From assembly GCA_017517305.1 (NCBI GenBank), contig JAFWZV010000003.1, positions 62,001-126,000 of the forward strand: DNA of 64,000 bases, in the 5' to 3' direction. Origin of the DNA: Lachnospiraceae bacterium (GTDB lineage Bacteria; Bacillota; Clostridia; Lachnospirales; Lachnospiraceae). The notes beneath the pieces are model-generated. The model was not told the origin of the DNA. It did not search any database and worked only from the letters and a program-made list of their open reading frames with translations. Position 1 is the stretch's first letter; each line of letters begins with the position of its first letter. Of the stretch, positions 3,130 through 64,000 are shown in pieces. A program made the position numbers and the translations under genes.

Positions 3130-3405
3130 AAACTTATCAGCTATGAAGAGACGAGTACCATAAAATCGGTCTACAGAGAGAGTTCCACTACCCGCTGAGA
3201 GAGAACTTAGAATACGCTTATGGGAAGACTACCTCGGAGCTGCCTATGCAAAACATAGGCCGTTGATTACGTTACAATCATTAAAGAGTGTCACTTTGTA
3301 AGATGTGTACTTATCCTTTGTAAGTACGGATTTATTCAAAGTGGAACTAGGGTGGAACCGCGATTTATCGTCCCTAGCGTAAGATTACGCTAGGGACTTT
3401 CTTTT
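3130..3405 (+). promoter_or_regulatory. T-box leader of thrS with intrinsic terminator
   Basis: The T-box core agggtggaaccgcg lies at 3349-3362; the A after TGG would pair with a U discriminator, as in Gram-positive tRNA-Thr. An AGTA loop-E-like motif near 3150 and an ACC triplet in gactacctcgg near 3230 are a plausible specifier loop reading a Thr codon. The terminator (stem 3370-3380 with 3387-3397, then T-rich) ends the leader. Uncharged tRNA-Thr should favour the antiterminator and switch thrS on. The specifier assignment is inferred. Confidence 0.88.
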
Positions 3406-56120: not shown

Positions 56121-57212
56121 GTGCAAGGCTATAGAATGTTTAAACAATTAAATAGTGTAGAGGATTTAGAGTTATCCTTCTATGAGGAGGTTTCCCAGAT
56201 ACCTGAGAATGAGGGAGATTTAGAAACCACCGTAAGCTATGTAAAGGATACTAGAGATGGAAAGCTTTATATTAAGAAGGAAATATTAAATGGTGACAAA
56301 GCTGTATATGAGGAGCTGCTTAGATATGAGGAAAAGAATGGCAAAAAGCTAGCCGGAGTACCTAAGCTATTTACCATTACAGATGATGGAAACAGAGTTT
56401 ACACTATAGAGGAATTTATAAATTGTCCAACCCTACATAGTGTAATGGAGTCTCAATCTGTTACTGCTGAGGAGCTTACACTTATATTTAGAGAGGTGTG
56501 TATAGTATTAGAGAGACTTCACAAGTCTGCTAAGCCTATAGCTCATGGTGAGGTTTCCGCCAGAAATATATTGGTGGATATGGATGCAGTAAGAGGTATA
56601 ACTAAGAATCAGAAGGTTTACCTGGTGGATTTTAACAGGGGAACTAAGCAACATCTTAGAATAGATATAAGTCAGGATATGAAGGATTGCTGCAAAACCT
56701 TGAGACAGTGTATGGATACCTTGGTGTTAAAAAGTATAACAGAGTTTGATGGACCACTTTGGGAAGGACTTAAGGATATTGCTGAGAATGGTCCCGTAAA
56801 ATTCACCACAGACCGTCAGATGATATCTGGTCTAGGAATGCTTATAGGCAAACGTGCTCCGAGAAGGGAAAAGTCAAATAAAAAAAGCTACGCATTACCA
56901 GGCTTTAGAACTAAGAAGCTATGGAAGATGCTTATAGCTTCATTTGCATATATATTTATGGTGTTAATTGCCATTAATGTGGATATGGATTATGAAGGAA
57001 TATGGAATGTGTATGAGAGACTTTGTGCTTTTGGTTTGATGTTTTCATATCCAGCATGGTTTTGCAATTATATGGGGGTTAGAGATAAGTACAGTTGGTT
57101 AAATGGAAAGAGCGTGGTTAAGAAGCTTATAGGACATTTTATAGCGGTGGTTGCAATATTTGGTTTCTGGATGATGATGATAATAGGACCGGATTTACTT
57201 AATATATTTTAG
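56121..57212 (+). CDS. Protein-kinase-like membrane protein with degenerate catalytic motifs
   Basis: 363 residues. The kinase-like fold occupies residues 1-250: a candidate ATP-anchoring Lys in LYIKKEI (52 or 53), hinge-like IEEFINC, catalytic-loop HGEVSARN (142-149) where the usual Asp is Glu, and DFN (170-172) instead of DFG. Two or three C-terminal transmembrane helices (about 272-290, 300-318 and 340-360) anchor it. Probably a pseudokinase or a weak kinase. GTG start at 56121 after aaggag; an ATG five codons later is possible. Ten bases after the decarboxylase gene. Confidence 0.72.
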   Translation: MQGYRMFKQLNSVEDLELSFYEEVSQIPENEGDLETTVSYVKDTRDGKLYIKKEILNGDKAVYEELLRYEEKNGKKLAGVPKLFTITDDGNRVYTIEEFINCPTLHSVMESQSVTAEELTLIFREVCIVLERLHKSAKPIAHGEVSARNILVDMDAVRGITKNQKVYLVDFNRGTKQHLRIDISQDMKDCCKTLRQCMDTLVLKSITEFDGPLWEGLKDIAENGPVKFTTDRQMISGLGMLIGKRAPRREKSNKKSYALPGFRTKKLWKMLIASFAYIFMVLIAINVDMDYEGIWNVYERLCAFGLMFSYPAWFCNYMGVRDKYSWLNGKSVVKKLIGHFIAVVAIFGFWMMMIIGPDLLNIF

Positions 57213-57231
57213 ACTCGGAAGTGGAAATAGT

Positions 57232-57269
57232 AAAAACCATTTCATCCGTGTGGGTGAGATGGTTTTTTT
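57232..57269 (+). terminator. Intrinsic terminator of the kinase-like gene
   Basis: AAACCATTTCA pairs with TGAGATGGTTT, and a run of seven Ts follows. Confidence 0.82.
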
Positions 57270-57335
57270 GATTGGTATCTCCAAGCTGTGGGATATGTCA
57301 AAAGGCAAACTATGAATAAGGTCCTTTCTAGAAAT

Positions 57336-57396
57336 CACTTCCGTAACTTTTGCGGAGGTGTTTTTGTTTTGGTCTATACTGCAGATGTAGCTGAGG
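57336..57396 (+). promoter_or_regulatory. Hairpin plus promoter-like module upstream of the ClpP-type gene
   Basis: CACTTCCG (57336-57343) pairs with CGGAGGTG (57353-57360), followed by a 36-base stretch (57361-57396) containing TATACT at 57375-57380. The stretch is 31/36 identical to 62366-62401, which has the same hairpin type before it. Read as an upstream terminator followed by a promoter shared with the radical-SAM gene. Confidence 0.55.
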
Positions 57397-57439
57397 GGAG
57401 AAATTTATCAAAATCTATTAGAAAAGGAGAATAGGAATT

Positions 57440-58054
57440 ATGACTAGATATGCTAAGGAAACTGCAAAAGGAATTGAAATACTAGCATTAGAGGAGGTGC
57501 TTTATTCAAGTAGGGAGATTTTTCTTACAGAGGAGGTAAATACAGATACATCAGTTCAGTTGATTAAAGAGCTGATGGTGCTAGAGAAGCTTGACCCTAC
57601 CAAGGAGGTGACACTTTACATTAATTCACCTGGTGGAGAGGTTATCAGTGGAATGGCGGTGTATGACTACATTCAGATGATGAAGGCTCCAGTTAAGACT
57701 GTTTGTATTGGAACAGCAGCCAGTATGGGGGCTATGCTTTTCTTGGCTGGTGATAAGCGGGAAATGCTTCCACACACCAGACTTATGATTCACGATCCTG
57801 CCTTTGGAGGTGGAAATATGGCGGGTAAGAAGCCACATGAGTTGCAGCAGTATGTAGATAAGCTTAAGCAAACTCAGGATATAATAGTAGATATTATTGC
57901 TCAGAAGACAGGTAAGTCTAAGGAAGAGGTTCGTGATACTACTAAAGAGGATGCATATTTTAATGTGGCTGAGGCTATGGAGTATGGGCTTGCTACAGGT
58001 ATTTACAATAAGCTTAATGATACCTTGGGTAACGAGAATTTGGTGTTGTTATAA
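57440..58054 (+). CDS. ClpP-family serine protease
   Basis: 204 residues. The catalytic Ser is in GTAASMGAML, the His in RLMIHDPAFGG, and an Asp in EDAYFNVAEAMEYGL. The oxyanion segment INSPGGEVISGMAVYDYI is intact. The middle segment GGNMAGKKPHELQQYVDKL follows the ClpP handle pattern. It has no Clp ATPase neighbour, unlike housekeeping clpP next to clpX, so it is probably a second copy dedicated to this locus. Ribosome site aaaaggaga. Confidence 0.9.
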   Translation: MTRYAKETAKGIEILALEEVLYSSREIFLTEEVNTDTSVQLIKELMVLEKLDPTKEVTLYINSPGGEVISGMAVYDYIQMMKAPVKTVCIGTAASMGAMLFLAGDKREMLPHTRLMIHDPAFGGGNMAGKKPHELQQYVDKLKQTQDIIVDIIAQKTGKSKEEVRDTTKEDAYFNVAEAMEYGLATGIYNKLNDTLGNENLVLL

Positions 58055-58222
58055 AAAAGAGTTGAGGTTTAATAAAGTGCTGGGTATAATTTGATTATGG
58101 ATAAATTCTGTGGAAATTACGGAAAAAAGTTATTGGTGATTTAGTATATGAACAAGCAAGGTAATGTGTGGGTGGTACTGCACATTTCCTTGCAAAATTA
58201 ATAATAATTTGGAGGTAGAACT

Positions 58223-59221
58223 ATGAGAGAAGAAATTTTGGAGAACAAGGCAGATTTGGAGCTTAAGCTTAGAGGTCTTATGGATCATTTTACAGGATTA
58301 GATACCTTTGTGAGTGAGTATGTATGTGATGAGGAGGGAAAGTTGTCCGAGGATAAGGTGGACGAACTTATCAGTGAGCTAATAGGGATAATGTACAACC
58401 ACTGGTACTATCAATTTAATAATGGAATGTCTGGAGCTAAAAAGGTGTGCTTAGAGCAGTTTTTGTATCTGGCTATTATGTCCCATAGATATGGAGATAA
58501 TGTGAGAACCTTTAGAAATATTTTATCTCTGCTAGATGATGATAATTATTCTAATTTATTTGAACTTTATGAGGATGAGATAAATGAGCATAGAAGCTGT
58601 CCTAGAGGCTTCTTTGGGAAGCTACATGAAAATTATGTGGAGCTTTCAGGACATACCATTCTAGAGGATATGGAGGAGGCCGACAAGGCTATTATAGATG
58701 GGGAGCTTGATGCAAAAAGGACATCTCAGAAGTATAGACAGCAGCAGGAGTCTATATGTGCAGAGTATGAGGACAAAGGTATAGAACCTGTATATCATAG
58801 AGAGGCTACCTATGAAGAGATGATAGGCTACCAGGAAAGTGTGCCAGATGACTATATAGAAGAAATAAATCCTGAAACAGGGGAATTAAGCTATGTGCCT
58901 GTATGGAATAAGTTATCACCTACATTTATGGATAGAGCACTAAAACGACTTGATGAAGAATATGTGGCTGAGGTTAAGGAAAAAGAGGCTTTAGCCCTGG
59001 CTCAGTGGAGGGAGAGTATCAAGGATCCAGCCAGATTCCTTCAGGCGTGTAGAGATTTTAGGAAGCTTTACTTTGTGGTAGGAATTAACAGGAAGGAGCT
59101 TGAGGAGACCTTCGTTCGCTTTCTTAACAAGCAGGGCAAGGGAAAGCTTGATAATACAGATAAGGTTAATGAGCTTTATGTAACTCTTGCCAGAGCAAAG
59201 AAAATATCTGACCGTGCGTAG
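58223..59221 (+). CDS. Unknown helical protein
   Basis: 332 residues, not recognised, soluble, very acidic and helical (for example EEADKAIIDGELDAKRTSQKYRQQQE). No signal or membrane segment. It follows the ClpP-type gene by 168 bases containing an imperfect hairpin (aaggtaatgtg/cacatttcctt) and has ribosome site ggaggtagaact. 15 bases before the next gene, so the pair is co-translated. Confidence 0.75.
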   Translation: MREEILENKADLELKLRGLMDHFTGLDTFVSEYVCDEEGKLSEDKVDELISELIGIMYNHWYYQFNNGMSGAKKVCLEQFLYLAIMSHRYGDNVRTFRNILSLLDDDNYSNLFELYEDEINEHRSCPRGFFGKLHENYVELSGHTILEDMEEADKAIIDGELDAKRTSQKYRQQQESICAEYEDKGIEPVYHREATYEEMIGYQESVPDDYIEEINPETGELSYVPVWNKLSPTFMDRALKRLDEEYVAEVKEKEALALAQWRESIKDPARFLQACRDFRKLYFVVGINRKELEETFVRFLNKQGKGKLDNTDKVNELYVTLARAKKISDRA

Positions 59222-59236
59222 AGCGGGGGTGATAGT

Positions 59237-60232
59237 ATGTTTAAGAAAAATTTCTATGATTGGGTAAAGTATGATTTTACACATAGTCAGGAGCTACAGG
59301 GAAATGCCAAATCATTTCTAGCCCGATATTACAAAGAGTACTACGATATGGGAGCGGCATATGATGAACTTAAGAGGCTTGCAGATGGCTTGAAGGTGGG
59401 AAAGACCTCAAAGGAATTGGTCTTTCATAAGGCCAAGGAGATGTATAGTAAGTCAAAGCTTCAGATAGTTAAGGAAATGCCAGATAGAGAAGGGATTATA
59501 TCTTTTAGAAGCTTTAATCCCTTCAAGGGAGCATGTGAAGGTGATATGACTGCTGCTGAAGTGGTAGAGTTAGCTAATATGGTTCTAGATGCCAGAATAG
59601 ATAAGGCTATTAAAGAATACATATATAATATTGATCATGGTAGGAAAACGGATAATACCCTTGATATTATAGATAAGCTTTTTGAGGAGCAGGGTGTAAA
59701 AATAGAGTTTGACGATAATGCAAAGCTACAGGTTAATAAAACAGAATGCTCCAACCAAGAGGATGTTAATTCTGAGAAATTTAAAGAAGAAGCTGAGAGA
59801 GTATATAAAATAATTTGGAATAGCAAAAAGGATAATATAGTGCTTCCAATATATCAAGAGGGAAATATAGGTATATATATTATGGGAAGGAAGAATATTA
59901 TCAAAGAAGATTGGAGTGAAGGAATAGACAGAATAGATGGGGCAGAAGAATTATCAGAGACTGAAAAAATGGTTCTAAAAAAAGTCTATGAAAGCAATAA
60001 AGCATATTATTGTTTTGTGGATAATACACCTTATAGAGATGGGGATAGTCTTATGCCTGATATCATAGTTAATGTATGCTATGACTTAGATGATGTCATA
60101 AAAGAATTTGGTAGAAATAGAAAGTATACCAGTGAAATATATCGTAATGTCAATGGTATGGGAGATACTGAATTATTATCTGAACTTGGAGAGAAATATA
60201 GACATTATTTTTCCAAGGACGAGATGGATTAA
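59237..60232 (+). CDS. Unknown protein
   Basis: 331 residues, not recognised, soluble. The first half is helical with basic patches (YDELKRLADGLKVGKTSKEL); the second half is more mixed (NIVLPIYQEGNIGIYIMGRKNIIKED). Ribosome site gcgggggtgatag. It is the second gene of a pair and ends at a terminator. Confidence 0.72.
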   Translation: MFKKNFYDWVKYDFTHSQELQGNAKSFLARYYKEYYDMGAAYDELKRLADGLKVGKTSKELVFHKAKEMYSKSKLQIVKEMPDREGIISFRSFNPFKGACEGDMTAAEVVELANMVLDARIDKAIKEYIYNIDHGRKTDNTLDIIDKLFEEQGVKIEFDDNAKLQVNKTECSNQEDVNSEKFKEEAERVYKIIWNSKKDNIVLPIYQEGNIGIYIMGRKNIIKEDWSEGIDRIDGAEELSETEKMVLKKVYESNKAYYCFVDNTPYRDGDSLMPDIIVNVCYDLDDVIKEFGRNRKYTSEIYRNVNGMGDTELLSELGEKYRHYFSKDEMD

Positions 60233-60275
60233 TTGGAAAAATTAAATAACCAACATTATGTATAAAAGCTGTCAG

Positions 60276-60298
60276 ATTAGAAATGCTGGCAGCTTTTT
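60276..60298 (+). terminator. Intrinsic terminator
   Basis: AAAGCTGTCAG pairs with CTGGCAGCTTT (one G-U), followed by a T run. Coordinates are approximate to a few bases. The gap to 60416 also holds a TATCCG/CGGATA hairpin near 60336. Confidence 0.7.
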
Positions 60299-60416
60299 GT
60301 GTTAACAATTAGCCATATTCCAATATCCGTAAAAATCGCGGATAAGAAAAATTGCCATGCTAAACTGTCACTACAGACATAGGCAGCCTTAAACTAAGGG
60401 CGGAAAGGAGACCAAT

Positions 60417-61034
60417 ATGAGACAAAGTTTGGCAGACGTTTTAGCAGAGGCGAGAAAGGAGAGTATCAGGGAATCAGAGAAGATAAGAGCCTGTGTAGAA
60501 GCTATGGGAGAGGTAACCCTATATGAGCTTCTTCTTAGAAGTGGTTATTCCAATAAGGATAAGGATGAGTTAATAGATAACTATTTATTTATGGGAGTAA
60601 TAATTTCCTATGAAGCTCTTAAGGATTTGTCAGGTCCGGAAATTGAGAAGGGCTTAAGAAAGATGAAGCTTAGGGACTTTTGCTGTATGTCGGACCATTT
60701 AGATAAATATATAGATAAGGAGCTTATGGAAGGGTTACTTAGTGAATATCAGTTGGCAGATATATACGGTATAGCTAATAGAAACATAGGTCACAACATA
60801 CAGGAAGCTGGGCTAAATGGTCATAAAGCGGCAAAGGATTTTGCCAGAATCAATGTAGGCTCCTTAGATACGATGCTTAATTTTCCTGAGGACTATAACC
60901 CAAACCATAACTATGGAAAAAGTAGGATGGGGGATTTTCTGTTAGATGGTGGTATAGGAGGCGCATTTAGACTTTGTAAGGATTATGACATTAATAAGGC
61001 CATTGAAGGGTTTATTAAGTTGGCAACAGAGTAA
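60417..61034 (+). CDS. Unknown protein
   Basis: 205 residues, not recognised, soluble and helical. Starts MRQSLADVLAEARKESIRES; contains a Cys pair (RDFCCMSDH) and HNIQEAGLNGHKAAKDFARI. The ribosome site aaaggaga is in place. 34 bases before the ATPase gene, so probably made together with it. Confidence 0.72.
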   Translation: MRQSLADVLAEARKESIRESEKIRACVEAMGEVTLYELLLRSGYSNKDKDELIDNYLFMGVIISYEALKDLSGPEIEKGLRKMKLRDFCCMSDHLDKYIDKELMEGLLSEYQLADIYGIANRNIGHNIQEAGLNGHKAAKDFARINVGSLDTMLNFPEDYNPNHNYGKSRMGDFLLDGGIGGAFRLCKDYDINKAIEGFIKLATE

Positions 61035-61068
61035 CTTATAAAAGATAAGAAGAAAGGATGATGAAATT

Positions 61069-62319
61069 ATGTGTATGATGAAGAGAAAAAACTACGGAAC
61101 AAGAAATCTATCAGGTGTGATTGTAAGTAACGACACATTTGCCACAGGGCTTAACAACCATGATCTAGTGCTGGCTAAGACGGGAGGAGGTAAGACAGGT
61201 ATATATGTAAGCTCCTATATGGAGGAAGCATATGAAAGTCTTATAGTGGTTGATACAAAGGGTACTCTGTACCGCATGTACAAGGACCATCTTTTAAGTC
61301 AGGGTGTTAAGGTAAAGCTGATAGATATGGTTAATCCCAAACGTTCAACCGTTGGTTATAACCCTCTGACCTTCACTAAGGTGAGGGGCACAAGAGGATA
61401 CAGTCAGAAGGATCTAAAGTCCGTGGTTGCAACACTAATTCCTAAGGATTTGGATGAGCGAGATACTTACTGGGTACTATCGGCTAGAAAGTATCTGTAT
61501 TCTATTTGCTGCTATGTGATGGATTTTCTTTCAACTAAGGATCAAAATCTGGGGTCAGTTTTGGCTATTCATAAGGAATTTTGTTCTGGAAATATGGATG
61601 AGATTTTTGATAGAGTATGTGATGAAAATCCTAAATCGGCTTTTGCTGGTGCATATAAGCAGGTTATAGGTCTTAAGGAATCAAGCAAAACCTGGGCCTG
61701 TGTCCTTGACTTTGCCAGCACTGCCCTAGATGTAATGGATAGTGAGGAGATGAACATTATTTTTGCCAAGAAAAAGAGCATAGATTTTGAAAGCTTAGGC
61801 AAGGAAAAGTCAGTTCTTTTTATCAACATAAGTGATATGGATCGTTGTTTTGATGGAATAGTTAATCTCCTTTACATTCAGGGCTTAAAATCTCTGGTGG
61901 AGCTTGCTGACAGCAACCCTGACGGCAGACTTTCCATGCCGGTGAGATTTATATTTGATGACTTCGCCTGTGGTGCACCTATTGATAACTTTGATAATAT
62001 TATAAGTGTGGTTCGCTCCCGTGATATATCCTGTAGTCTTATAGTACAGAGCTTAACTCAGCTTAATACAGTTTATGGCTCGGATAGGGCCACAACTATA
62101 ATTAATGCCTGTGACCATATGCTGTATCTAAATGGCAATGATGATGTTACTAAAGATTTCTTGGCCTACCGACTTAATAAGCCGAGACATATTATCGACA
62201 GACTGCCTAATAACAAGGCTTATCTACTAGAGGCTGGAAGTGCTCCAAGACTTATAGATAAGGCTAGGCCTTATGCCTTATATAACAGGATTGTGGCTGG
62301 TGAAGAGGCTGAAAAGTAG
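61069..62319 (+). CDS. VirD4/TraG-family ATPase without membrane anchor
   Basis: 416 residues. Coupling-protein-type ATPase: Walker A LAKTGGGKTGIYVSS, then VVDTKGTLYRMYKDHL, NPKRSTVGYNPL, Walker B VRFIFDDFACGAPIDNF, and the characteristic SLIVQSLTQLNTVYG region. It lacks the N-terminal transmembrane helices of conjugative coupling proteins, and no relaxase or type IV secretion gene is in the window. It may be a cytoplasmic motor recruited for another task. The start could be the Met two or three codons further in. Confidence 0.87.
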   Translation: MCMMKRKNYGTRNLSGVIVSNDTFATGLNNHDLVLAKTGGGKTGIYVSSYMEEAYESLIVVDTKGTLYRMYKDHLLSQGVKVKLIDMVNPKRSTVGYNPLTFTKVRGTRGYSQKDLKSVVATLIPKDLDERDTYWVLSARKYLYSICCYVMDFLSTKDQNLGSVLAIHKEFCSGNMDEIFDRVCDENPKSAFAGAYKQVIGLKESSKTWACVLDFASTALDVMDSEEMNIIFAKKKSIDFESLGKEKSVLFINISDMDRCFDGIVNLLYIQGLKSLVELADSNPDGRLSMPVRFIFDDFACGAPIDNFDNIISVVRSRDISCSLIVQSLTQLNTVYGSDRATTIINACDHMLYLNGNDDVTKDFLAYRLNKPRHIIDRLPNNKAYLLEAGSAPRLIDKARPYALYNRIVAGEEAEK

Positions 62320-62338
62320 CAAATATGTTTACAAACAA

Positions 62339-62401
62339 AATGCTTCCGTAATTTCTACGGAAGCATTTTTGCTTTGTTCTATAATGCAGATGTGGTTGAG
62401 G
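62339..62401 (+). promoter_or_regulatory. Terminator plus promoter-like module upstream of the radical-SAM gene
   Basis: AATGCTTCCGTA (62339-62350) pairs perfectly with TACGGAAGCATT (62356-62367) and a T run follows. The 36 bases at 62366-62401 contain TATAAT (62380-62385) and are 31/36 identical to the stretch before the ClpP-type gene. No good -35 is seen at 17 bases; the hairpin occupies that place. Confidence 0.6.
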
Positions 62402-62416
62402 TAGAAAACCTCAAAA

Positions 62417-62537
62417 CCCGGTGTACAGGGCACAGGAAAAAGAATATGTACACAGCGACTGAGATGCGTCTAAAAACATCCAGGGTATACCTACAGAAAG
62501 GCAACTGCTAAAACATCTGAGGTGAAGCCCACCGAGG
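62417..62537 (+). ncRNA. Structured RNA element, copy A
   Basis: GTGTACA (62421-62427) pairs with TGTACAC (62447-62453); CTGAGATG (62459-62466) with CATCCAG (62477-62483, one bulge) around a loop ending CTAAAAA; palindromic GGTATACC at 62484-62491; gaaaggcaact; and GGTG/CACC around aagcc. A near-identical copy lies at 63468. It is in the leader of the radical-SAM gene. No known riboswitch family is recognised. Confidence 0.72.
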
Positions 62538-62580
62538 GATTGCAGACTCTAAAAATGTGTATTAAAGGAGGATGACTACT

Positions 62581-63453
62581 ATGAGAGAATTAAAGTATAT
62601 ACCAAATTCAGTATGCTGGAACATAACAAGCAGATGCAACGAAGCCTGTAAGTTTTGCTACAGAGAAACTAATATGAAGGATTTAACCTTTGAAGAACAA
62701 AAGAAGGTTATTGACGTTCTTGCTTCTGTAGGAATTCTCAAATTAACCTTTGCAGGAGGTGAGCCTTTGTTAATTCCAAGAATCAATGATCTTATCCTTT
62801 ATGCAAAGAGCAAGGGATTGGTGGTGTCTATGACAAGCAATGCTATATTGATTGATGAGAAGCAGCTTAAGTTCCTTCTTGAGAATCTAGACTGGTTAAC
62901 ATTATCCCTAGATGGAGCCACAGACGAGATACAAACACTTATGACCAGACATAGTAAGCATGCTACGAAGGTTAAGGAAATTCTCGAATATGCATCAGCC
63001 TATAAGAAGGGTAAATGTCGCATAAAGATAAATACTGTTGTGAGTAAAAAGAACTACAAGAACGTACAGGATATAGCCCACCTAGTGAAGAAATATAATG
63101 TTACTCGCTGGAAGCTTATGCAGTTTACTCCACTTAGAAGCTACGCCAAGGAGGCTCAGAGTGAGTTTGAGATAAGAAATGATGAGTTTGTCAGTGCTTA
63201 TAATAAAGCCAAGCTTGCTATGGGGAGTATGGTAAATCGTGTGGAGGCTACTTGTAGCAATGATATTGAGCAAGAAACATTTACGGTATTTCCTAACGCA
63301 GATGTAAGAGTTGCGAAGAATCTTCAGGAGAAGACCATAGGAAATTTGCTACGGGACAACCCTGGCGAAATATGGGCAAGAGATGGAAGGGAGTATAAGC
63401 AATTAAATATGAGAACAAAATTCCTGGAGAGGGATGTAGATTTGATAGCGTGA
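62581..63453 (+). CDS. Radical SAM enzyme, viperin-like
   Basis: About 291 residues. The 4Fe-4S motif is CNEACKFC (CxxxCxxC), followed by SAM-binding FAGGEPLL and MTSNAIL, and the late KINTVVSKKNY and VTRWKLMQFTPLR, which resemble the corresponding KINSV...N and RWKVFQ segments of viperin. Near the C-terminus VFPNADVRVAKNLQEKTIGNLL follows the general SPASM/Twitch layout but without extra cysteines. Viperins make chain-terminating ddhNTPs; other radical SAM roles are equally open. The start at 62581 is nine bases after aggag; the ATG at 62572 overlaps that site. Confidence 0.8.
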   Translation: MRELKYIPNSVCWNITSRCNEACKFCYRETNMKDLTFEEQKKVIDVLASVGILKLTFAGGEPLLIPRINDLILYAKSKGLVVSMTSNAILIDEKQLKFLLENLDWLTLSLDGATDEIQTLMTRHSKHATKVKEILEYASAYKKGKCRIKINTVVSKKNYKNVQDIAHLVKKYNVTRWKLMQFTPLRSYAKEAQSEFEIRNDEFVSAYNKAKLAMGSMVNRVEATCSNDIEQETFTVFPNADVRVAKNLQEKTIGNLLRDNPGEIWARDGREYKQLNMRTKFLERDVDLIA

Positions 63454-63467
63454 TAAAATTCGCCTGT

Positions 63468-63584
63468 CCAGTGTACAGGGCACCAAAGAATATGTACACA
63501 GCGACTGGCTGCGGCTAAAAACAGCCAGGGTATACCTACCGAAAGGCAACTTCCAAAGCATCTGGGGTGAAGCCCACCGAAGGT
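63468..63584 (+). ncRNA. Structured RNA element, copy B
   Basis: Same order of motifs as copy A: GTGTACA (63471-63477) with TGTACAC (63493-63499); CTGGCTG (63505-63511) with CAGCCAG (63522-63528) around cggctaaaaa; GGTATACC (63529-63536); cgaaaggcaact; GGTG/CACC. Where A has GATG/CATC, B has GCTG/CAGC, a paired (compensatory) change. It follows the radical-SAM gene by 15 bases and precedes the next gene by 39. Confidence 0.75.
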
Positions 63585-63623
63585 TAGTATATGATAATGA
63601 CTTACAAAATAGGAGGTAATCGT

Positions 63624-64000
63624 ATGGAAGATATACTTACAAAATTAGCTCAGAAAAACTTAGGTATGGGAGGCCCGGTAAGCCAGGAGGAGATTGAAGA
63701 GTTTTTCAAGGATAATATGCAGAAATATAGCTGGAGACTAATTGCCAGAATGAGTGAAAAAGAACATAAGGATGATACGTGGGATTACCTATACACCGAT
63801 GATATGGGAATAGGAATCACATTAAATCCAAATGTCAAGGGTTTTCGCTTTAGCAAAAATGTAAAGATAATCTACAAATTAAGCTCACATGAGAGTAACC
63901 CTTGGGATTATGCTTTCAAAGATGGTTCAATATTTTTTGAAAAGAAATATATTGAATTTAGAAAAATGGTTAAAGAAATGAGTATATTAGAGGAGGAGAC
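63624..64000 (+). CDS. Unknown protein, partial at right edge
   Basis: Starts at 63624 after a strong aggaggtaatcgt ribosome site and stays open for at least 125 codons to the window end. The start reads MEDILTKLAQKNLGMGGPVS; the middle has DDTWDYLYTDDMGIGITLNP. Not recognised, soluble so far. It is the second gene with the structured RNA element in its leader. Confidence 0.8.
   Translation, partial: MEDILTKLAQKNLGMGGPVSQEEIEEFFKDNMQKYSWRLIARMSEKEHKDDTWDYLYTDDMGIGITLNPNVKGFRFSKNVKIIYKLSSHESNPWDYAFKDGSIFFEKKYIEFRKMVKEMSILEEE

Follow-up and report, generated by a model that had tools for sequence, protein, structure and literature searches.

What is the repeated sequence that stands before each of two adjacent genes near the end of this stretch of DNA, and does it act on the genes behind it? 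The window, that is, the whole stretch analyzed here, comprises 64,000 nucleotides (nt) from the 2.72-Mb genome of a Lachnospiraceae bacterium (G000; GenBank assembly GCA_017517305.1, contig JAFWZV010000003.1, positions 62,001 to 126,000 of the forward strand). A preliminary description had noticed two copies of about 118 nt and proposed that they form an undescribed structured RNA. The reading favored here, to which we give a probability of roughly 0.6, is that the element represents a new family of structured leader RNA acting in cis on the cargo genes of a genomic island.

Two copies of one element precede adjacent genes

The two copies lie on the forward strand at positions 62418 to 62535 (copy 1) and 63468 to 63585 (copy 2), each before one of two adjacent genes as first described, and are 87% identical by blastn. 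A repeat search of the window aligns them in three matches, of 107 nt at 78% identity, 23 nt at 100%, and 16 nt at 94%. When a 136-nt stretch with copy 1 is used as the blastn query, it matches the bacterium's own genome at two places only, the second with 87% identity and an E value of 6.6e-35.

The conserved core of about 66 nt is composed of a hairpin of 7 bp (P1), the linker ACAGCGACU, a hairpin of 6 bp (P2), and the tail AGGGyA. It spans 62418 to 62488 in copy 1, where P1 (62421 to 62453) pairs GTGTACA (62421 to 62427) with TGTACAC (62447 to 62453) around the loop GGGCACAGGAAAAAGAATA, and P2 (62459 to 62483) pairs CTG(A)GAT (62459 to 62465) with ATCCAG (62478 to 62483). In copy 2 the core spans 63468 to 63533, with GTGTACA (63471 to 63477) and TGTACAC (63493 to 63499) as the arms of P1 (63471 to 63499) and CTGGCT (63505 to 63510) and AGCCAG (63523 to 63528) as those of P2 (63505 to 63528). 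All of the motifs listed in the preliminary description are present: the GTGTACA/TGTACAC arms, the CTG..CAG hairpin with CTAAAAA in its loop, the palindrome GGTATACC, and the GGTG..CACC hairpin. The change from GATG/CATC to GCTG/CAGC between the copies, read there as compensatory, is real, and copy 1 has in addition one bulged A in that stem, P2, relative to copy 2.

The palindrome GGTATACC and the GGTG/CACC hairpin, which had been counted among the parts of the element, are not conserved in the three relatives found outside the window and occur, among the five sequences, only in the two window copies; the element proper is thus the first 66 nt or so. In the corresponding region one relative (G031) reads AGGGTAACAACCACCAAGAG and seems to be without about 35 nt in the middle. 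By eye, the 3′ half of the window copies resembles two tandem versions of one AGGGTAACAACCACCAAGAG-type unit.

Single-sequence folding energies are unremarkable. The minimum free energies of the 136-nt stretches are ordinary (z scores of −0.13 and −0.21), and those of the cores are modest (−1.06 for copy 1, −2.33 for copy 2, and −0.02 for G031). Single-sequence folding was therefore dropped as a proof of structure, and the case for structure rests on covariation and not on stability.

Relatives of the element in other genomes

Relatives of the element are rare. A blastn search with copy 2 over 145 genomes, the own genome included, retrieved a single further genome (2 of 145 in total), namely, G031, a member of the same genus in which the element lies at L007:4185-4252. 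A covariance model of three sequences and 66 positions (R1) was searched over 37 genomes of the genus, 299 of the family, and 392 of the order, with the own genome included each time. Convincing matches within the genus occur in 2 of the 37 genomes, G000 with its two copies and G031. The family sample shows none that is convincing beyond the window's own copies, with 22 weak places there not inspected. Two matches stand out in the order sample, G520 (E value of 5.3e-6 per genome) and G099 (8.3e-6), which belong to two genera of another family (f11) in the same order. These E values are 65- to 100-fold better than the best of all other matches (5.4e-4, in the family); the best others in the order and genus reach 8.4e-4 and 1.9e-3.

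The weak matches in the family, genus, and order were taken as chance because of their position in open frames. Of 45 that were checked, all but two fall wholly inside an open frame of 150 codons or more (43 matches), and the frames around the remaining pair measure 140 and 142 codons; this check left out 23 places (22 family rows and 2 genus rows, one of them shared), and the criterion is imperfect, since the true copy in G520 also lies inside such a frame, in antisense. The cores have 55 of 66 letters (G031), 40 of 63 (G520), and 36 of 63 (G099) in common with copy 2, and 49 of 63 are common to G520 and G099. The five elements represent four loci (the window with two copies, G031, G520, and G099) and form two close groups, one of three sequences from a single genus and the other of G520 and G099.

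A second covariance model, made from all five sequences (R2) and searched over 83 loci, finds nothing below an E value of 5e-4 beyond the five copies already known, some of which it meets in two overlapping loci, and the next in rank are weak matches already met; in L141 to L143 it finds nothing at E values up to 1. When 672,222 bases of loci were scanned with a descriptor (AGCGAC plus 6 of 7 in P1), the only additions were L141, L027/L028, and L044, which were rejected, being without most of the other fixed blocks. The window element has no blastn match among phages and plasmids. With the G520 element as the query there is none in phages and there are two poor plasmid matches at an E value of 2, and three exact-pattern scans of viral contigs returned 0 matches. 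Of what the preliminary description had looked for in a covariance search, homologues and covariation were found, the latter with 9 of 13 pairs, but the many homologues were not, the yield being 2 of 37 genomes in the genus and two genomes in the order.

Covariation supports a conserved two-hairpin fold

The five sequences were aligned (A7) by fitting to the covariance model. Of the 65 paired cells in this alignment, 96.9% pair. The figure for shuffles is 73.4%, with none of 500 reaching the observed value; pair counts are biased toward the structure because the G520 and G099 copies were retrieved with a model that holds it. Changes on both sides with pairing kept are seen in 9 of the 13 pairs, against a shuffle mean of 4.8 (1 of 500 as high), whereas further pair types, 14 versus 9.8 in shuffled alignments, stand out less (12 of 500 shuffles reach that number). 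At 0.785, the covariation score exceeds that of shuffled alignments (0.278), none of 500 reaching it, and slid structures score at most 0.246. With P2 in a hand-set register, 64 of 65 cells pair, and RNAalifold, run on the same model-fitted alignment, recovers both stems unprompted.

The arms of P1 read GUGUACA/UGUACAC in copies 1 and 2, GUAUACA/UGUAUAC in G031, GUUGGUG/CAUCAAC in G520, and GUUGGAG/CUCCAAC in G099. Three cells, two in G520 (P1 pair 5 and P2 pair 4) and one in G099 (P2 pair 4), form a pair only as G-U in the gene-strand reading, which points to an RNA made from the gene strand. In G031, P2 contains one G.A mismatch and is absent from the minimum-energy fold. The stems vary, and 32 of 74 columns are invariant over the five sequences. 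These include the linker ACAGCGACU, AGGG.A in the tail, and loop letters in both hairpins (GGGC and AGA in P1, GCG in P2). This combination of fixed loops and freely varying stems suggests that a partner recognizes the RNA.

A partial check on the model bias comes from a sequence-only pattern (linker, P2 loop, and tail, with no pairing asked), outside which the 5′ arm of P1 falls. This pattern matches G520 and G099 and misses G031. In both G520 and G099, P1 is complementary at 7 of 7 positions, a value that sampled upstream sequences reach in 567 and 539 of 20000 cases. The five sequences, on a model-fitted alignment, thus present the covariation-supported conserved fold that characterizes a structured leader.

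Two further helices were considered by eye. A pseudoknot between the P1 loop and the 3′ part would pair GGGC with GCCC in the window copies and GGCG with CGCC in G520 and G099, has nothing to correspond to it in G031, and is not claimed. The other helix, joining the 5′ flank to the P2 strand, was set aside, as full pairing is seen in only 2 of the 5 sequences.

Comparison with known RNA families

Rfam 15 at gathering scores gives no match on the element anywhere in the window, and at E values up to 5 nothing credible falls on it between 62380 and 63660. Around the G031 copy the same relaxed search returns only MIR530 (E value of 0.56) and CRISPR-DR27 (3.9), both on the opposite strand and far under gathering. 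The proposal of an undescribed structured RNA has therefore held, with homologues and covariation now added on a wider alignment. In L127/L128, at E values up to 1, the single Rfam match is to STnc490 and lies away from the element, at L128:2239-2346 on the minus strand. It is below threshold (37.8 bits versus a gathering score of 56), closely precedes an IS200-type transposase gene (PF01797), and perhaps represents the terminal structure of an IS200-type insertion sequence.

Orphan riboswitch candidates are covariation-supported leader RNAs of unknown ligand. The element is like them in its variable stems, fixed loops and linker, leader position, and compact core of about 66 nt, and unlike them in that it has no visible expression platform and that the genes behind it have no evident common pathway. 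In type III toxin-antitoxin systems, too, a structured RNA precedes a gene; here, however, there is no tandem array of cores and no gene-strand terminator between RNA and gene, and none of the genes behind the element matches a toxin in the libraries searched.

The layout also resembles that of putL and putR of phage HK022. These two putRNAs are about 70 nt long, similar in sequence, and folded into two stem-loops each, with one just behind the promoter and the other further down (PMC9378689). The resemblance, one of layout only, thus extends to length, hairpin number, two similar copies per element, and the role of leader part. On the other side, HK022 is a lambdoid phage whereas the present genomes are Clostridia, and G031, G520, and G099 show one copy each in the stretches searched. 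Among the matches listed in a literature search, the parts of the papers seen hold no account of the element; a large survey of human microbiomes that reports thousands of candidate structured RNAs may include it (PMC8040213).

The element lies upstream of unrelated genes

All five elements lie on the sense strand upstream of a start codon, with 38 to 92 nt between the end of the core and the start, the start codon of G031 being uncertain. In copy 1 this distance is 92 nt to the likely start at ATG 62581, or 83 nt to the ATG at 62572, which abuts GGAGG; in copy 2, it is 90 nt to the likely start at ATG 63624. The full 118-nt repeat ends about 40 nt before the start codon, as the preliminary description states. 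Copy 2 begins 14 nt past the stop codon of the gene that copy 1 precedes.

The gene behind copy 1 (62581 to 63453, forward strand, in an open frame from 62572) encodes a viperin-like radical-SAM protein. The product matches the PADLOC pVip profile (E value of 3.9e-45), the three pVip models being its only PADLOC matches at E values up to 0.01, and carries CNEACKFC, an instance of the radical-SAM CxxxCxxC motif. Viperin and viperin-like chains lead its PDB list, the top chain being named "Radical SAM core domain-containing protein." It thereby resembles the prokaryotic viperins, but its score with the NCBIfam model viperin_w_prok (NF038283) is 145 bits (E value of 2.5e-42), under the cut-off of 180, so it is a relative of viperin and not a certified member. 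We know of no viperin with a structured leader. A 30%-identical relative in the genus (G036, L010:1420-2265), followed by a gene with a cytidine-deaminase domain (1027-1407; PF00383, E value of 1.5e-8), is without the element.

The gene behind copy 2 (forward strand, 63624 to 64000 and on to G000:C2:126229) encodes 201 amino acids (aa) with a C-terminal domain of the RNA polymerase alpha subunit type (alpha-CTD; PF03118, E value of 3.4e-12). An alpha-CTD gene also follows the element in G031, and the two proteins are 42% identical over 55 aa, whereas the cores of G031 and copy 2 agree at 55 of 66 letters, a contrast that counts in favor of the leader reading. In G520 and G099 the element precedes a YbjN-like gene, a name taken from plasmid records that match the G520 protein; Pfam gives no YbjN match for this protein. 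The two YbjN-like proteins are 79% identical over 42 aa, and the G099 frame stops after 50 codons. The expectation that homologues would stand before radical-SAM genes as a rule was not borne out: one of the five genes is viperin-like, two are alpha-CTD genes, and two are YbjN-like.

Signals around the element are few. In G520 and G031, sequences that match a promoter consensus, and the consensus only, end 11 nt and 6 nt, respectively, ahead of the element; the scan found none near the window copies and none on the G099 gene strand. In each of the four loci scanned (window, G031, G520, and G099), the stretch from element to start codon contains no terminator on the gene strand, and by eye no pairing with the ribosome-binding site is common to the copies; the element therefore presents no visible expression platform. 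A hairpin resembling an intrinsic terminator (62337 to 62369, forward strand) follows the upstream VirD4-like gene described below, just before copy 1. It overlaps a 59-nt block on the same strand (62343 to 62401) with a terminator-like stem and a TATAAT box, which is 81% identical to positions 57338 to 57396 upstream of the clpP-like gene. This block is a possible start region for a copy 1 transcript, although the promoter scan found none there, and its presence before both the ClpP gene run and copy 1 means that the two gene runs may share a start signal.

The island and its partner genes

The two copies lie in an island of about 7 kb on the forward strand (57213 to 64000 and, with window numbering continued, to about 64286), which is flanked by a kinase-like gene and by a gene for a MATE-like transporter, both named by eye. 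The island contains genes for a ClpP-like protease (57440 to 58054, forward strand; PF00574, E value of 2.6e-52) and a VirD4/TraG-like ATPase (61069 to 62319, forward strand; PF02534, E value of 1.9e-31; conju_CD1115, 226.7 bits against a cut-off of 250). The kinase-like gene (56121 to 57212) is present in 8 of the 37 genus genomes. The island is absent from five of the six other carriers outside G031; in these five (G009, G003, G030, G018, and G005) the MATE-like gene directly follows the kinase-like gene. The sixth carrier, G010, is represented by a 3.3-kb contig with the kinase-like gene, two other frames, and no MATE gene, so that presence of the island cannot be read from it either way. 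In G031 a related, larger island has the element at its left end. The profile of a 332-aa island protein finds only G000 among 397 family genomes, a sample from which G031 is apparently absent, and that of a 205-aa island protein finds only G000 and G031 among the 37 genus genomes.

The ClpP and VirD4-like proteins of G031 are 85% and 81% identical to those of the window. In G520 the order is element, YbjN-like, ClpP, and VirD4-like, the three genes having overlapping or near-touching ends. Element, ClpP, and VirD4-like ATPase thus occur together in three of the four loci, across two families; the contig of the fourth, G099, is short (5.8 kb). The link to the gene pair is not absolute, since in an IMG/VR contig (L144) a ClpP gene adjoins a 39%-identical VirD4-like gene and the element is not detected at E values up to 5. 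As baits, the ClpP and VirD4-like proteins yield many matches, those in plasmids being mostly annotated as ordinary ClpP and conjugation proteins, and no phage record is common to both among the matches listed.

Other features of these loci were recorded in passing. ClpP-like and VirD4/TraG-like genes occur together in four loci (window 57440 to 62319, L007/L125, L135:9855-11709, and L144:1979-3842), directly adjacent in G520 and L144, and the pair may be a distinct protease-ATPase system or a mobile-element module. The gap between the kinase-like and MATE-like genes (window 56121 to 57212 to L006:6287-7726) resembles an insertion hot spot, being empty in five relatives and differently filled in G000, G031, and G010. 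The kinase-like gene of G031 (L007:2883-3973) lies in two overlapping frames and so looks broken by a frameshift, unless the assembly is in error.

A structured leader RNA as the favored reading

A leader acting in cis brings these observations together most simply. Action in cis accounts more readily than action in trans for one copy before each of two genes in a single island, with one of the copies intercistronic, and we put the chance that the element works in cis at about two in three. The RNA would be made as the 5′ part of an mRNA or, for copy 2, of an intercistronic stretch, and would fold while emerging. One common factor, whether a ligand, a protein, or RNA polymerase, would recognize the fixed loops and the linker, and its binding would set how strongly the following gene is expressed. 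Versions with a small ligand, a bound protein, or bound polymerase (put-like antitermination) carry roughly equal weight. The genes behind the element (viperin-like, alpha-CTD, and YbjN-like) are unrelated, which suggests a signal that concerns the state of the island or the cell and not one pathway. A bolder extension, which we regard as doubtful, would make the RNA the common sensor-switch of an undescribed type of island marked by ClpP and the VirD4/TraG-like ATPase. Its cargo, here the viperin-like nucleotide-modifying enzyme and elsewhere the alpha-CTD or YbjN-like proteins, would stay silent until a common signal such as phage infection.

An RNA acting in trans, independently of the gene behind it, corresponds to the other option raised in the preliminary description, a small RNA as a working part of the locus; it would be a scaffold, guide, or decoy for the ClpP/VirD4-like proteins or the cargo. 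The company of the ClpP and VirD4-like genes in three of four loci and two families would suit such a small RNA, and the fixed loops could be protein contacts. We nevertheless consider it improbable, if worth keeping in mind, because each of two copies in one island directly precedes a gene, copy 2 starts only 14 nt past a stop codon, a simple scan shows no promoter-like site for either window copy, no gene-strand terminator separates element from gene in four loci, and the gene pair occurs without the element in L144. The put-like version of the cis reading, in which a nascent two-hairpin RNA would bind RNA polymerase and pass downstream terminators, draws on the HK022 layout (PMC9378689) and on the polymerase-type alpha-CTD gene behind two of the five elements. 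Taken by itself it is unlikely: the likeness is one of layout only, and there is no known terminator that would need to be read through. Furthermore, 7 of the 37 genus genomes have alpha-CTD matches in excess of one per genome, and ten stretches with such further genes are without the element, the two matches of that search sitting inside genes of L104 and L105.

Action at the level of DNA, as a palindromic operator or as an end or recombination site of a mobile element with RNA pairing as a by-product, would fit the palindromic TGTACA, GTATAC, and GGTATACC, the mobile look of the island, and the IS200-type transposase gene (PF01797) 207 nt upstream of the G099 copy. It is very improbable, however, as the spacing of the arms varies (19, 15, 15, 12, and 12 nt), which would change the helical phase; symmetry of the DNA is broken at the G-U cells and lacking in the conserved letters of loop and linker, the orientation is always that of a leader, and by eye no transposase is seen in the open frames near the other three loci. 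Chance or simple duplication, with the window copies a recent repeat and the distant matches accidents, could account for the great rarity (2 of 37 genus genomes) and accords with the accidental look of most other model matches, 43 of 45 checked being in long open frames. It is scarcely credible: the f11 matches exceed the best other match 65- to 100-fold in E value, have the fixed blocks in common with the window copies, and both precede the same gene, in one case beside the same ClpP and VirD4-like pair.

If the cis-acting leader is real, it would place RNA-level control, by a family outside Rfam 15, before a viperin-like gene in an island of apparent cargo or defence type, and the invariant loops would offer a handle for finding what the RNA senses. 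The element is rare and has few copies, so its weight depends on function.

Additional features

The G031 island also encodes a 955-aa protein (L125:7387-10254) that matches PADLOC MkoA (E value of 1.9e-39) and DpdJ (1.8e-32). Next to it are encoded a 1372-aa AAA/peptidase-M41 (FtsH-like) protein and a second one, 50% identical and at least 1305 aa long. Elsewhere in the window, a T-box leader is found at positions 3134 to 3378 (RF00230, 104.9 bits).
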